A stretch of DNA of 64,000 nt from Dysgonomonas sp. PH5-45 (GTDB taxonomy: Bacteria; Bacteroidota; Bacteroidia; Bacteroidales; Dysgonomonadaceae). The notes beneath the pieces are model-generated. The model did no database searches and had not been told where the DNA came from. It saw nothing but the letters and a program-made list of their open reading frames with translations. Positions 14,294 through 20,689 of this stretch are shown here, one piece after another; within the stretch, counting starts at the first letter, position 1; every line of letters begins with the position of its first letter. The stretch spans positions 124,001 to 188,000 of the forward strand of contig NZ_JARXWE010000001.1 in NCBI RefSeq assembly GCF_029893235.1, read 5' to 3'. The position numbers were made by a program, and so were the translations under genes.

Positions 14294-14301
14294 TATCTTT
14301 G
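14294..14301 (+). promoter_or_regulatory. Candidate -7 box of the DPP-IV-like gene
   Basis: TATCTTTG, 36 nt before the chosen ATG at 14338. An in-frame ATG at 14299 overlaps this box and would lie upstream of the transcript start, which supports 14338. Confidence 0.55.
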
Positions 14302-14337
14302 CCTGCTGAAAACAGATTTTATATTTTTGAATTGAGT

Positions 14338-16497
14338 ATGAAGAAACTTGGATTTTTATTTTTGTTGTGTTCATTGTCGTTGGGTATTGCAGCCCAAAGC
14401 GTTAGCCTGAAAGACATAACGGGAGGCAAATATCAGGCTAAGGATGTTGAACCGTTTGTGTCGTCGGCCGATGGTGAGTTTTACTTTCAGGTAGACAAAC
14501 AAAATTCAAAAATCATTAAATACGCATTCAAAAGCGGATTGGCTGTTGATACTGTTTTTGACGTGAAGAAAGCCCGGGGATGCGATTTCGACAGTTTTGA
14601 AGGATTCCTTATGAGCCCCGACGAAAAACGCCTTTTGGTGTATCGTAACTCCGAAAGCATTTACCGCCATTCGTTTAAGGCCGATTATTTTTACTACGAC
14701 ATTCGCCGGAATCTTATTCGTCCTCTTACCGAAAATAAAAATAAACAGATGGTTCCCGTATTCTCGAAAGACGGGCGTATGCTGGCTTTTGTGGTCGATA
14801 ATAATATCTGGTTGGCTAAGTTCGATTATGATACCGAATCGCAAATAACAAAAGACGGTGAGTTTGGCAAAATTATCAATGGAGCTACCGATTGGGTTTA
14901 CGAAGAAGAATTTGTAACTACCTGTTTGATGGACTTTTCGGCCGATAATTCGCTTTTGGCTTTTGTTCGTTTCGACGAAACGGCAGTGCCCCAGTACTCG
15001 TTCCCTGTTTATGGCGGACAGCTCTACACATCGTCTCTTTCTTTTAAATACCCAAAGGCGGGGGAGGTTAACTCTAAAGTCAGTTGCAATGTATTTGATA
15101 TAGAGTCGAAAACCATTCGTCAGATGGATTTGCCAAAAGGTAAAATAGAATACATTCCCCGTATCGCATTTTTGCCCGAAGGCGATCAGTTGGCTATCAT
15201 GACCCTGAACCGTGAGCAAAACGATTTCAGCATGTTTTACGCCAATGCCCGTTCATCGGTTTGCAGGCTTGTTCTTCACGATGTGAGCGATCAATATATC
15301 AACTCCGATTTTTTAAGTTCCATCCGGTTTTTCGACAAACAATTCACATATATAGGCGAAAAGAGCGGATACAGCCACCTGTATTTGTATGAACAGACAG
15401 GAAACCTGAAACGCGCCCTGACCAGTGGCGACTTTGATGTTACAGCACTCTTGGCGATAGACCCTGTTTCTAAAACCGCATTCTATGAGTCGGCCGAAGA
15501 AAGTCCATTGCGTAGGGCTGTATATAAGGTCGATTTGGTAAAAGGAACAACCACAAAATTATCGTCAAAAACAGGATATAACAGAGCTTCGTTCAGCAGT
15601 AACGGTAAGTATTATATAAACCGTTGGTCGGATGCTGCTACCCCTACCCGCATCACAGTAAACGATGCTGCGGGAAAAGAGATTCGGGTTTTGGAAGACA
15701 ACGCGGCCCTTAAATCGGCTTTAGCGTCGGCCGGTTTGCCTAAAAGGGAATTTGTGACTATTCCTGTTGGGGGAGAAACCCTCAACGCATGGATTATTCG
15801 TCCCGTTAATTTCGATTCGTCTAAAAAGTATCCCCTTGTGATGGTTCAGTATAGTGGCCCTAATTCGCAGGAAGTTCTGGACAAATACACAGTAGATTGG
15901 GTAGAATACCTTGCCACACAAGGTTTTGTTGTAGCCGCCGTTGACGGACGGGGCACAGGAGCACGAGGCACAAACTTCCGTAAATGTACGTATATGAATC
16001 TGGGAATAAAAGAGTCGGACGACCAGATTGCCGCCGCCCGCTATTTTGCCTCACAACCTTATATAGATGGCAATAATATCGCTATCTGGGGATGGAGTTA
16101 TGGCGGATACAATGTACTGATGAGCATGAGCCGCGACAATGTGTTTAAAGCCGGTGTAGCTATTGCCCCGGTAACCGACTGGCGTTTTTACGATTCGGTA
16201 TATGCCGAGCGTTTCATGCGTACTCCGCAGGAAAATGCAAGGGGTTACGATAATGGCTCGCCTATAAAATTGGTCGATAAACTTAACGGAAAACTGTTGC
16301 TTATTCATGGGTCGGCCGATGACAATGTGCATCTGCAAAACTCTATGGAATATACCGATGCCTTGATTAAGGCCGAAAAGCAAATAGATATGTTCATTCT
16401 GCCCGACAGAGATCACTCTATGCGAGGTGTAACAAACCGTACTTATTTGTACCAGAAAGTAATTGACTTTTTGAAACAAAACTTGCAAAACAAGTAA
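14338..16497 (+). CDS. Dipeptidyl-peptidase IV-like serine peptidase (S9B)
   Basis: A 719-residue exported prolyl-type peptidase. The start at 14338 gives a clean signal peptide (hydrophobic core, then G-I-A-A-Q). An N-terminal beta-propeller carries the E-E-E-F motif that in DPP-IV enzymes holds the substrate's free amino end. The alpha/beta hydrolase domain has Ser587 in G-W-S-Y-G-G-Y, Asp661 in H-G-S-A-D-D-N-V-H and His693 in D-R-D-H-S-M, spaced like the known triad. It likely removes X-Pro or X-Ala dipeptides in the periplasm or at the surface during peptide feeding. lipA follows after 22 nt. Confidence 0.93.
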   Translation: MKKLGFLFLLCSLSLGIAAQSVSLKDITGGKYQAKDVEPFVSSADGEFYFQVDKQNSKIIKYAFKSGLAVDTVFDVKKARGCDFDSFEGFLMSPDEKRLLVYRNSESIYRHSFKADYFYYDIRRNLIRPLTENKNKQMVPVFSKDGRMLAFVVDNNIWLAKFDYDTESQITKDGEFGKIINGATDWVYEEEFVTTCLMDFSADNSLLAFVRFDETAVPQYSFPVYGGQLYTSSLSFKYPKAGEVNSKVSCNVFDIESKTIRQMDLPKGKIEYIPRIAFLPEGDQLAIMTLNREQNDFSMFYANARSSVCRLVLHDVSDQYINSDFLSSIRFFDKQFTYIGEKSGYSHLYLYEQTGNLKRALTSGDFDVTALLAIDPVSKTAFYESAEESPLRRAVYKVDLVKGTTTKLSSKTGYNRASFSSNGKYYINRWSDAATPTRITVNDAAGKEIRVLEDNAALKSALASAGLPKREFVTIPVGGETLNAWIIRPVNFDSSKKYPLVMVQYSGPNSQEVLDKYTVDWVEYLATQGFVVAAVDGRGTGARGTNFRKCTYMNLGIKESDDQIAAARYFASQPYIDGNNIAIWGWSYGGYNVLMSMSRDNVFKAGVAIAPVTDWRFYDSVYAERFMRTPQENARGYDNGSPIKLVDKLNGKLLLIHGSADDNVHLQNSMEYTDALIKAEKQIDMFILPDRDHSMRGVTNRTYLYQKVIDFLKQNLQNK

Positions 16498-16519: not shown

Positions 16520-17365
16520 ATGACACAGCACGTAAAAAAACCCGATTGGTTAAAGATAAGACTGGGAGGAAACGACCGTTTCACCCAGACAAAAAAGATA
16601 GTAGAATCGCACTGCCTGCACACTATTTGCAAAAGTGGTCGTTGCCCTAATATGGGCGAATGTTGGGAGCGGGGCACGGCAACGTTTATGATTGCCGGTG
16701 ATATTTGTACCCGTTCGTGTAAATTCTGTAATACACTGACCGGAAAACCCTTACCACTGAATCAGGACGAACCGGCCAATCTTGCGCAATCAATTAAATT
16801 GATGAAGTTGCGCCATGCGGTAGTCACATCGGTAGACCGTGACGACTTGCCCGACTTGGGCGCTCAGCATTGGGTCGATACTATCGACGCGATAAGAAAA
16901 GAAAACCCTACAACAACTATCGAGGTGCTTATACCCGACTTTCAGGGCATAGACAGCCTCATTGACCTTGTTTGTGCAGCCAAGCCCGATATCATAGCCC
17001 ACAATATGGAAACCGTGAAAAGCCTTACACCCAAGGTGCGGAGTGCTGCCAAATACGATGTCAGTTTGCACGTTTTGCAGCGGATTGAAGAGCAAGGCTG
17101 TTCATCCAAATCGGGCATCATGTTAGGCTTGGGCGAAACCAAAGACGAAATTCTGGAACTGATGGACGACCTCCTTTCCGTTGGTTGCAAGCGCCTCACA
17201 ATGGGGCAATATTTACAGCCTACACGCAAGCATTTGCCTGTTTCAGAATATGTTACCCCGGAGGCTTTTACTCAACTGAAAGCCATCGCTTTGGATAAAG
17301 GTTTTGTTCATGTCGAAAGCGGACCGCTTGTCCGTTCGTCATATCATGCAGATAATTCAATTTAA
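16520..17365 (+). CDS. lipA: Lipoyl synthase
   Basis: A 281-residue radical SAM enzyme that inserts two sulfurs into octanoyl groups on 2-oxoacid dehydrogenase and glycine cleavage proteins. Two cluster motifs are visible: the auxiliary Cys37-x4-Cys42-x5-Cys48 and the radical SAM Cys63-x3-Cys67-x2-Cys70. The C-terminal R-S-S-Y triad that supplies a serine ligand is present (V-R-S-S-Y-H). It lies 22 nt after the peptidase. lipB is not in the window. A short stem with a T-rich tail follows. Confidence 0.95.
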   Translation: MTQHVKKPDWLKIRLGGNDRFTQTKKIVESHCLHTICKSGRCPNMGECWERGTATFMIAGDICTRSCKFCNTLTGKPLPLNQDEPANLAQSIKLMKLRHAVVTSVDRDDLPDLGAQHWVDTIDAIRKENPTTTIEVLIPDFQGIDSLIDLVCAAKPDIIAHNMETVKSLTPKVRSAAKYDVSLHVLQRIEEQGCSSKSGIMLGLGETKDEILELMDDLLSVGCKRLTMGQYLQPTRKHLPVSEYVTPEAFTQLKAIALDKGFVHVESGPLVRSSYHADNSI

Positions 17366-17506: not shown

Positions 17507-18640
17507 ATGACAAGTAAAGGAGCAAAAAAATACTTCCGGAATCCAACTATAGGTGTACTGCCTTTTGTCGTTTTTGTTATAAGCTTTCTGATAACGCTTG
17601 AGATAGAACGATCATCGATCATAGGTATGCTTTCTGCCATGTTTTTCGAACTGTGTTGCCGTATTTATGGCAAATCGAAAATATCGACTATGGCCTTGGG
17701 CACCTCTTTTTCGGCTTTGCTTCTTACCCTGATTACACACATTATTTTTGGTGATGTAATATTCTCTAAAGGCTTTTTTCTTGTTCTGGGCGAAATCTAT
17801 TTTGTTTGCATTGTTATGGTGGTGCGCCTGTTTCAACCCCAAATAAAACAAAGTTTCTTTTGGCACAAACACTACACGCAAAAGGTTTATCTGAACGATT
17901 TTTTTGAAACTGCCGCTCTTATACAATACCTGCTTTCGGTTCACTTGTTTTATATGCTCATATATGTGTATTTGCGCCACAAGACAACCAACTATACAAT
18001 ACTGGATGGCGTAAGCTATATATGGATACCGTTGAGTTTGTGTGCAGGCCTGTTCTTGTACGGACATATAAAAATATGGAATGTTTCGCGGAAGTTGCGT
18101 AAGGAAGAGTGGTTACCCATCGTGAACGAAAAAGGTGAGGTTTCGGGCAAAATTGCAAAAATGGAGTCTTTGAAACTGAAAAACCGTTTTATGCACCCTT
18201 ATATCCGCATAGCTGTGGTTTGCAACGAGAGGATATATTTGAAACCCCGGCAAGAAAAAAATATTATCGACATTGGGGCATTAGACCATCCTTTCGAGAA
18301 TAACCTGTTGTTCAGCCACGATGTGAATATTTCAGCCCGCGATAGCATTGCACATATTTTGGAAAAGAGCGATGAATCGACTTTCAAGTTCCTGCTTAAA
18401 TATTCGTTCAAGAACGAAGAAACAAACCGGCTTATTTTCCTATACTTGCTACGGGTTAAAGACGAAAGCCTGTTGCGCGAACTAAATATTGGAGGAGGGA
18501 AATTCTGGTCGTTGAAGCAGGTGGACGAGAATATGTTGCAAGATGATATATTTGGCGAATGTTTCCAATTAGAATACGAATACCTCAAAAACACCATCTT
18601 TATTGCCGAAAAAGTAAAGAACGCCACAAAAAATAGTTAA
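17507..18640 (+). CDS. Membrane protein with degenerate Nudix-like domain
   Basis: A 377-residue protein with two parts. Residues 10-190 hold about six hydrophobic membrane segments. Residues 200-370 look like the Nudix fold of isopentenyl-diphosphate isomerase/YfcD type: W-L-P-I-V-N-E-K-G-E-V-S-G-K, then H-P-Y-I-R-I-A-V-V-C-N-E-R-I-Y-L, and a late F-W-S-L-K-Q-V-D-E-N. The catalytic Nudix box (G-x5-E-x7-R-E-x-x-E-E) is missing; in its place stands a stretch with H-P-F and A-R-D-S-I-A-H. Hence probably a binding or regulatory domain. Its neighbour dxs starts the isoprenoid pathway. The fold call is my inference from pattern. Confidence 0.6.
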   Translation: MTSKGAKKYFRNPTIGVLPFVVFVISFLITLEIERSSIIGMLSAMFFELCCRIYGKSKISTMALGTSFSALLLTLITHIIFGDVIFSKGFFLVLGEIYFVCIVMVVRLFQPQIKQSFFWHKHYTQKVYLNDFFETAALIQYLLSVHLFYMLIYVYLRHKTTNYTILDGVSYIWIPLSLCAGLFLYGHIKIWNVSRKLRKEEWLPIVNEKGEVSGKIAKMESLKLKNRFMHPYIRIAVVCNERIYLKPRQEKNIIDIGALDHPFENNLLFSHDVNISARDSIAHILEKSDESTFKFLLKYSFKNEETNRLIFLYLLRVKDESLLRELNIGGGKFWSLKQVDENMLQDDIFGECFQLEYEYLKNTIFIAEKVKNATKNS

Positions 18641-18781: not shown

Positions 18782-20689
18782 ATGTCTGAACAAAGCGAAT
18801 ATTCTTTACTGAATAAAATAAACTATCCGTCTGATATTAAGCAACTTTCAACAGAACAACTTGAAGTTGTTTGCTCAGAATTAAGGACATTCATCATAGA
18901 TCAGCTAAGTTCCAATCCGGGGCATTTCGCATCGAGTTTGGGTACTGTAGAGCTGACCGTTGCTCTTCATTATATCTACAACACACCTTACGACCGCATT
19001 GTGTGGGATGTAGGCCATCAGGCGTATAGCCATAAGATACTTACAGGCCGGCGCGAAAAATTCTCTACAAACCGTAAGTTTGGTGGTATTTCCGGATTCC
19101 CTAACCCTCAAGAGAGCGAATATGATGCCTTCATAGCGGGGCATGCCTCCAACTCTATTTCGGCGGCGTTGGGAATGGCCGTAGCATCCGAACTGAAGCA
19201 CGAAAATCGTAATGTTGTAGCCATTATAGGCGATGGAGCTATGACCGGCGGACTTGCCTTCGAGGGGCTTAACAATGCCAGTTCGCAACCAAACGATATG
19301 CTTATCATTCTCAACGATAACGATATGGCCATATCGGACAATGTGGGCGGCTTCCGCGATTATTTGGTGAAGATGACAACCTCGCAGACCTACAACCGCG
19401 TGCGGTACGACGTTTACCAGAAGTTTAAGTCGAGAAATCTCATCACGGAAAAAGGGAAGAATTTTATTCTGCGGTTCAATAATAGCCTGAAGTCGCTTAT
19501 CACCAAACAGCATAATATATTCGAGGGCTTCAATATCCGCTACTTTGGCCCCGTAGACGGGCACGACCTTCCCAGTCTGATAAGAATTATAAGCAATATA
19601 AAAGACCTGAAAGGGCCTAAAATTCTGCATATCCACACCAAAAAAGGAAAGGGCTACAAACCTGCCGAAGAGTCGGCCACCGAATGGCATGCACCGGGCA
19701 AGTTCAATAAACTGACAGGCGAACGCATCGTTTCGGAGCAGAAAGATCAGCCACAACGCTATCAGGACGTATTTGGCCATACTCTTGTGGAGATGGCAAA
19801 GAAAGACGAACGCATAGTGGGTATTACCCCTGCCATGCCTACGGGTTGTTCTATGGATTTTCTGATGAAGCAACTTCCCGGACGGGCATTCGATGTAGGT
19901 ATTGCCGAAGGTCATTCGGTCACTTTCTCGGCCGGGCTGGCTAAGGAAGGCTTGATTCCGTTTTGCAATATATATTCGTCGTTTATGCAGCGGGCCTACG
20001 ATAATGTTATACACGATGTTGCCCTGCAAGGGCTGCATGTAGTGTTCTGCCTTGACCGTGCCGGTCTGGTGGGCGAAGACGGAGCCACGCATCACGGAGC
20101 CTTCGACCTAGCTTATATGCGCTGCATACCTAACCTCATTATCGCATCGCCATACAATGAGCATTATCTACGCCATCTGATGCATACGGCTACTTACGGA
20201 GCCAGTTCTCCGTTCGTGATACGGTATCCCAGAGGACAGGGCGAGCTTGTGAACTGGGAGTGCGATATGAAGATATTGAAGATTGGAAAAGGGCGCAAAC
20301 TGAAAGAAGGCAAAGATATGGCCGTTCTTTCTATTGGCCCTATCGGCAATACAGTCAGGGCTGCCATTACCGAAGCCGAAGCACAAGGGTATAGCATAGC
20401 CCATTACGACATGATTTTTCTGAAACCGATAGATACTGAGCTTTTGGACGAAGTAGCCAAGAACTATAAGAAAGTTGTTACGATAGAATACGGAACTATA
20501 AACGGAGGATTGGGGTCGGCCGTGCTTGAGTATTTTTCGGATAAACAATACGACAGTGTTGAAGTTACAAGAATCGGTATTCCGGACAAGTTTATAGAGC
20601 ATGGCTCAATGGCCGATCTTAACCGTATTTGTGGCTTAGATTCCGATGGTATCAGCAGCTCATTGTTAACCGTCTTAAATAGAAGATGA
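18782..20689 (+). CDS. dxs: 1-deoxy-D-xylulose-5-phosphate synthase
   Basis: A 635-residue thiamine-diphosphate enzyme that condenses pyruvate and glyceraldehyde-3-phosphate, the entry step of the MEP isoprenoid pathway. The diphosphate/Mg2+ motif G-D-G-A-M-T-G-G is followed by the N-N-A segment; W-D-V-G-H-Q-A-Y near residue 80 and the central [15 protein letters not shown] match DXS rather than transketolase. The length is normal. trkA begins one base after its stop, so dxs-trkA-trkH is likely one transcript. Confidence 0.97.

Follow-up and report, generated by a model that had tools for sequence, protein, structure and literature searches.

A putative ligand-sensing pseudo-Nudix domain on a diverged YciB-type membrane protein of Dysgonomonas

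The locus and the predicted fold

Within the window, i.e. the whole stretch of 64,000 nucleotides of Dysgonomonas sp. PH5-45 that was analysed, lies a coding sequence of 377 aa on the forward strand (17507..18640, +; ATG start, stop codon at 18638-18640). Its product combines a membrane domain probably derived from YciB with a pseudo-Nudix domain of the Idi/YfcD type, an arrangement called class B below. The gene is flanked on the same strand by a gene for an S9 dipeptidyl peptidase (14299..16497, +; Pfam DPPIV_N and Peptidase_S9) and by lipA, encoding lipoyl synthase (16520..17365, +; NCBIfam TIGR00510 over cut-off), the latter directly upstream with a gap of 141 bp. Downstream come dxs (18782..20689, +; NCBIfam TIGR00204 over cut-off), trkA and trkH. 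A first-pass annotation of the same DNA had named dxs as the next gene, and it indeed begins after 141 bp, on the same strand.

The window protein reached the curated cut-off of no Pfam or NCBIfam family. In a Pfam scan of this protein together with 74 relatives, the IspA model gave E<1 for 3 of the 75 members (best E 0.091), and NUDIX was absent among the 25 of 34 families listed. The lowest E value among the families listed was 0.00072, for MFS_1 in 2 members, which we take for hydrophobic chance. A whole-genome search found homologues in 44 of 61 genomes, some of these matches being to solo Nudix genes only; in the protein's own family, 36 of the 37 genomes, its own counted, gave a match over both halves. 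Because of this match, and of the purifying selection on both halves described below, the 377-aa frame is not a chance open reading frame. The class B gene is genuine and conserved; none of the family libraries searched has a name for the window protein.

An AlphaFold2 model based on 75 aligned sequences (pLDDT 89.1, pTM 0.74) contains six long helices (residues 13-30, 33-55, 60-81, 88-108, 123-156 and 165-199), in keeping with the membrane anchor proposed in the first-pass annotation. We delimit from it a predicted membrane domain, residues 13-199 (17543..18103, +), and a pseudo-Nudix domain, residues 200-372 (18104..18622, +), which would be cytosolic. The numbers of K/R in the stretches between the membrane helices (4, 0, 2, 0, 2 and 2 from the N-terminus) agree loosely with both protein ends being inside.

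Residues 202-376 of the model follow a Nudix-like order of strands and helices. When solved structures were aligned to the model (Foldseek/VIA), YfcD was the best match (2fkb; Z 17.5, 155 residues, 2.2 Å), ahead of human IPP isomerase (Z 15.0-15.4; 2i6k, Z 15.4), DR0079 (2o5f; Z 15.3) and E. coli Idi (Z 14.6-14.9; 1x83, Z 14.9; 1hx3, Z 14.8), and the next protein scored Z 14.1. AraR and NrtR were also among the structural matches. A sequence-profile search with the window protein also had YfcD at its top, weakly (E 0.041). The computed fold of the C-terminal half is thus that of the Nudix superfamily, as the earlier assignment to the IPP isomerase/YfcD type had anticipated: YfcD and type I IPP isomerase (Idi), both soluble enzymes, share it and align from about residue 199.

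Relatives and the ancestry of the membrane half

A contig scan with the single window protein as query detected no relatives, and relatives were found with an alignment as query. The named relative loci are mostly from Dysgonomonadaceae (Dysgonomonas, Proteiniphilum, Petrimonas, Fermentimonas, Seramator); some carry other names (Prevotella sp., one Ruminococcaceae), and L210 is from Candidatus Azobacteroides. A distant match, in genome G042, was by Pfam a fusion of IspA (YciB, PF04279, E 1.1e-12) to an intact NUDIX domain (E 9.8e-14). A search of 295 genomes of the order Bacteroidales yielded three kinds of genes: class A, in which YciB is fused to an active-type Nudix domain; class B, the window type, in which the Nudix half lacks the box and is joined to a membrane half; and class C, a soluble (solo) Nudix protein with a box. 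The box was read in 31 of 36 class A cases, with a full Nudix box in 26 and RExxEE in 5. Pfam found NUDIX in 20 of 20 class A proteins and IspA in 19 of these 20, and the best NCBIfam match of four active-type relatives scanned was an IPP isomerase model, below its cut-off.

PF04279 was detected in 36 genomes of the order. For 33 of them the match was a frame of at least 350 aa resembling class A over both halves, and the remaining ones were one fusion seemingly split by contig ends and two cases of YciB alone. YciB without a Nudix domain was seen in the Bacteroidales genomes G088 and G297 (L269:5496-6059, 188 aa; L270:5239-5835, 199 aa). The class B genomes had no PF04279 match. A sample of the phylum (345 genomes, E 1e-12) added one full-length class A-like match, by similarity only (G607), and 2 of 14 named control genomes, E. 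coli and Caulobacter, matched PF04279. The YciB of E. coli has no Nudix domain. Our search of the open-access literature on YciB/septation protein and Nudix found no paper on the fusion.

The membrane halves of classes A and B were then compared by hhalign. They aligned end to end, with a score of 83.6 over 185 columns when 30 of 31 A rows and 47 of 54 B rows were used (L049 and L107 being one gene), and of 86.1 over 183 columns when the rows were restricted to 180-215 aa (27 from A, 42 from B). Rows without a clear domain boundary were dropped throughout. With random halves of the rows the score was 72.5-81.1. As controls, reversed, block-shuffled and column-shuffled A profiles (1, 15 and 8 trials) gave at most 27.6 against B, and seven other families, of which at least five look like membrane proteins, stayed at or below 16.4 with B and 20.2 with A. 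For the Nudix halves, B against A, the probability was 99.9, also with a smaller selection of domain-split rows (18 of 31 for A, 40 of 54 for B).

The window protein thus stays below the gathering cut-off of PF04279, being too diverged in its membrane half, while showing profile-profile homology to YciB/IspA/IspZ (septation protein A, PF04279) through the YciB-Nudix fusions. Judged from these profiles, the class B membrane half is a diverged YciB/IspA domain; the link runs via class A, the direct match to the IspA model being poor.

The Nudix active site and its history

The degenerate box segment covers residues 265-286 (18299..18364, +). Aligned with active relatives, the window protein reads N265, H271, D279, S280, H283, I284 and E286 at the positions of G-x5-E-x7-RE-x2-EE-x-G, so that the four box glutamates are replaced by H271, S280, H283 and I284. 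The missing catalytic box of the first-pass annotation is borne out here, and the box is absent from the class B rows read as well.

Other active-site positions are numbered after the class C protein of the same genome, whose gene (L250:6051-6593, contig C29) has an intact-type box. The table comprised 20 A rows, 19 of 20 C rows (L240, a solo gene missed by the gene caller, was excluded) and 96 of 99 B rows, those of 340 aa or less being dropped; 95 B rows are distinct, since L210 and L256 are one and the same locus. Invariant in the 20 A and 19 C rows were H31, H38, H42, R57, K61, H75, E80, E89, E92, E93, E114, E116 and E135. In a profile alignment these active relatives are collinear with Idi: H31, H38, H75, E114 and E116 fall on E. 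coli Idi H25, H32, H69, E114 and E116, which we take to be its five metal ligands, and R27, R57 and K61 fall on K21, R51 and K55, presumably its diphosphate contacts. At the position of Cys67, which we assume to be the catalytic residue of Idi, Cys is found in none of the 96 B rows and none of the 39 A/C rows. The A and C rows have Gly there, and by this feature they are therefore not Idi-like.

The His of positions 31 and 75 and the acidic residues (D/E) of positions 114 and 116 are missing from all 95 distinct B rows. Position 116 is K/R in 88 of them, and the place of H42 is K/R in all 95. H38 (Idi H32) is kept in 91, so that some metal binding is conceivable. The positions aligned with Idi K21 and R51 (R27 and R57) are K/R in 89 and 87 rows respectively, and the one aligned with K55 (K61) is basic in 42 and acidic in 25, with N252 in the window protein. 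The latter carries K218, H230, R234, R248, K298 and R308, and H230, the equivalent of Idi His32, is the single one of the five Idi-type metal ligands that it keeps. Where class B most often has E, K and Y, it has K302, N307 and N266 respectively, and on this alignment it is not the most typical member of class B.

The window protein thus differs from YfcD and Idi by the lack of the Nudix box and of most metal ligands, and by a Glu (E264) at the place of Idi Cys67. One could imagine that it is still an enzyme, with an altered chemistry that does without the box: H230 preserves a His of the metal-binding type (found in 92 of 96 rows), and 85 of the 96 B rows share the Glu at the Cys67 position. 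We consider this unlikely, as four of the five Idi-type metal ligands are gone from the window protein together with the four box glutamates. Across class B the usual metal site is lost, with positive charge mostly kept or gained, and this is the main ground on which we propose a metal-free receptor for an anion.

The conserved residues might instead serve protein contacts. The pseudo-Nudix half would then dock a partner protein at the membrane and no longer use its old pocket for small ligands, much as the Nudix domain of human KRIT1 is reportedly a protein-binding platform. Eight residues conserved in B, each in 86-95% of the 96 rows, and not conserved in A/C (N226, F295, K298, E351, C352, E358, Y359 and N362) fit such a platform, as B-only conservation extends outside the old metal site. 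However, the strongest exchanges fall on active-site positions and add charge of the same sign (R234 in 95 of 96 B rows, R308 in 88 of 96), which suggests that the pocket is used. We hold the platform to be rather doubtful.

A single branch (support 100/100) separates all 29 B rows, drawn from nine family labels, from the A and C rows in a maximum-likelihood tree of 68 Nudix domains. Beyond this branch A and C are mixed, 17 of the 19 C rows forming one group with weaker support (90/94) and two lying elsewhere among A. The simplest reading of this tree would be that the box was lost once, before the class B families parted, and that class C proteins are freed A domains. The direction from active fusion to class B is probable, for a tree with a midpoint root and with transfer between lineages possible. 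We conclude that class B is a pseudoenzyme branch of the YciB-Nudix fusions, and a new form of them.

Pairwise dN/dS of the whole class B gene could be obtained for 5 of 8 pairs, with values of 0.029-0.113; dS was saturated in the remaining 3 pairs and near saturation in some others. In 6 of the 8 pairs pN was lower in the Nudix half than in the membrane half. Both halves of the gene are under purifying selection, and the Nudix domain is not decaying. That it should be a mere remnant of an active fusion on its way out, as loss of the catalytic motif might have suggested, is hardly credible with such dN/dS and pN values and with a match in 36 of 37 family genomes.

Neighbouring genes, partners and a possible role

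The adjacency of dxs had raised the idea of a link with isoprenoid synthesis. Among the 94 distinct class B loci with a visible downstream gene, dxs came next in 4 (the window, L131, L152 and L209), all from the window's genus or from Dysgonomonas sp. 520. We therefore reject dxs linkage as a conserved feature that could hint at function; on this point the first-pass annotation, which had made conserved linkage a touchstone of its idea, did not stand. A sensor of IPP, DMAPP or a longer prenyl diphosphate that feeds back on isoprenoid supply would suit the Idi-type fold, the below-cut-off NCBIfam preference of the active-type relatives for an IPP isomerase model and the dxs gene of the window genome. 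Linkage elsewhere gives it no support, however, and YfcD and DR0079 share the fold, although we know of no isoprenoid role for either. Such a sensor seems improbable to us.

The usual neighbour of class B genes is the S9 peptidase gene: 62 of 95 distinct loci have it one or two genes upstream in the same orientation, as do 15 of the 18 class B loci taken from other families. An S9 gene is equally near, at most two genes away, in 1 of 20 loci of class A and in 0 of 19 of class C. This linkage may reflect shared locus ancestry rather than function. lipA is found directly upstream, on either strand, in 16 of the 95 loci. A plant fusion is known that pairs a dipeptidyl peptidase with a Nudix domain, and a similar pairing was considered here; it was dropped, as next to the solo gene one commonly finds what looks like DNA topoisomerase III (by eye, upstream of the class C gene in 13 of 19 loci). 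The solo gene of the window's own genome is among the 6 of 19 without that neighbour and lies just downstream of ftsA-, ftsZ- and yqeY-like genes. Directly upstream of the class A gene, a papain-type protease-like gene (cluster c33, by eye) was seen in 5 of 20 loci (L212, L215, L216, L221 and L225).

No genome had both a class A and a class B gene. A class C gene co-occurred in 22 of 30 B genomes, in 0 of 36 A genomes, and in 33 of the 265 genomes other than B; the genomes being related, Fisher values for these counts overstate independence. The classes were assigned by hand from match listings, C requiring a solo match at E 1e-40 or better, and the 36 A genomes include 5 whose box was not read. 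G093, with a fusion apparently split by contig ends, and G272, with an N-terminal piece at a contig end, were excluded. Three of the 30 B entries are short: G324 (234 aa), G227 (215 aa) and G224 (178 aa). The first two (L281 and L282) are forms with a box-less Nudix domain and apparently, by eye, one membrane helix instead of six. In Dysgonomonadaceae a close C match (E <1e-60) was counted by hand in 33 of 101 genomes, confined to the window's genus and four others (g1, g6, g7, g14 and g15), the other genera having the B gene only, or weaker Nudix matches. The idea that B is an obligate partner of the solo enzyme is weakened by these counts, as genera of the Proteiniphilum/Petrimonas type have B without a close solo match.

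Our preferred explanation, to which we give a probability of about one half, is that the window protein is an envelope protein of the YciB type whose pseudo-Nudix domain senses a ligand without metal, in the manner of the NUDT9-H domain of TRPM2 or of Bacteroides AraR. It would be an inner-membrane pseudoenzyme with a diverged YciB/IspA domain of six helices at its N-terminus and an IPP-isomerase/YfcD-type Nudix domain at its C-terminus, descended with the rest of class B from an active YciB-Nudix fusion. By its residues, the Nudix domain would no longer hold the usual catalytic metal nor hydrolyse a substrate. Its pocket may bind a phosphorylated ligand, probably one bearing a diphosphate, without metal or turnover, through the nearly fixed basic residues K218, R234, R248, K298 and R308, whose side chains, from the alignment, should face one pocket. 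The putative sensor role is reasonable because the metal ligands are mostly gone, the positions aligned with the presumed diphosphate contacts of Idi are largely basic, and the new Arg/Lys are nearly fixed. The ligand signal would travel along the long helix 6 into the membrane domain of YciB type, the output of which would concern the cell envelope. Hydrolysis would have passed, in many class B genomes, to the separate soluble Nudix protein, as the division of the solo gene between B and A genomes suggests.

A wider scenario is possible, and we advance it tentatively: in Bacteroidales a membrane-bound YciB-Nudix enzyme would have become a metal-free diphosphate receptor steering the YciB-type domain, with a prenyl, nucleotide or sugar diphosphate as candidate ligand, hydrolysis having moved to a soluble enzyme.

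To our knowledge the molecular role of YciB is unsettled. That it is fused in Bacteroidales to a Nudix domain of the Idi/YfcD kind points to a phosphorylated metabolite with which YciB works, and the existence of a pseudoenzyme branch hints that binding might by itself suffice. In E. coli, YciB is described as acting with the lipoprotein DcrB in keeping membrane fluidity (PMC9487459).

Two known systems resemble the proposed sensor. TRPM2 likewise has a C-terminal Nudix domain, NUDT9-H, on a membrane protein. One account describes a canonical, active form of this domain in invertebrates and a vestigial one in vertebrates, although ADP-ribose still activates the vertebrate channel (PMC6461439), and another assigns ADP-ribose binding to the vertebrate domain (PMC5671594). 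TRPM2 is however a eukaryotic channel with ADP-ribose as ligand, and the likeness considered here is that of the Nudix part. In AraR (BT0354) and NrtR, the structural matches mentioned above, a Nudix domain serves as ligand sensor. BtAraR is reported to have no Nudix catalytic residues, and its C-terminal domain to turn upon arabinose binding (PMC4666351). The Nudix domains of AraR and NrtR drive a DNA-binding domain, whereas that of the window protein is joined to a membrane domain. If the proposal is true, a bacterial enzyme domain has been turned into a membrane-coupled sensor, with active-type and dead forms both extant; it would be a counterpart in bacteria of vertebrate TRPM2, and would give a direct way into YciB function.

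A GreA/GreB-like protein was also encountered in one genome (G235, L291:1640-2599, -; PF01272, E 6.7e-15). Its C-terminal stretch resembles the same Nudix family, with a box that is broken by eye and no NUDIX match by Pfam, and frames of similar size occur in G136 and G319. It is perhaps a second pseudo-Nudix fusion.
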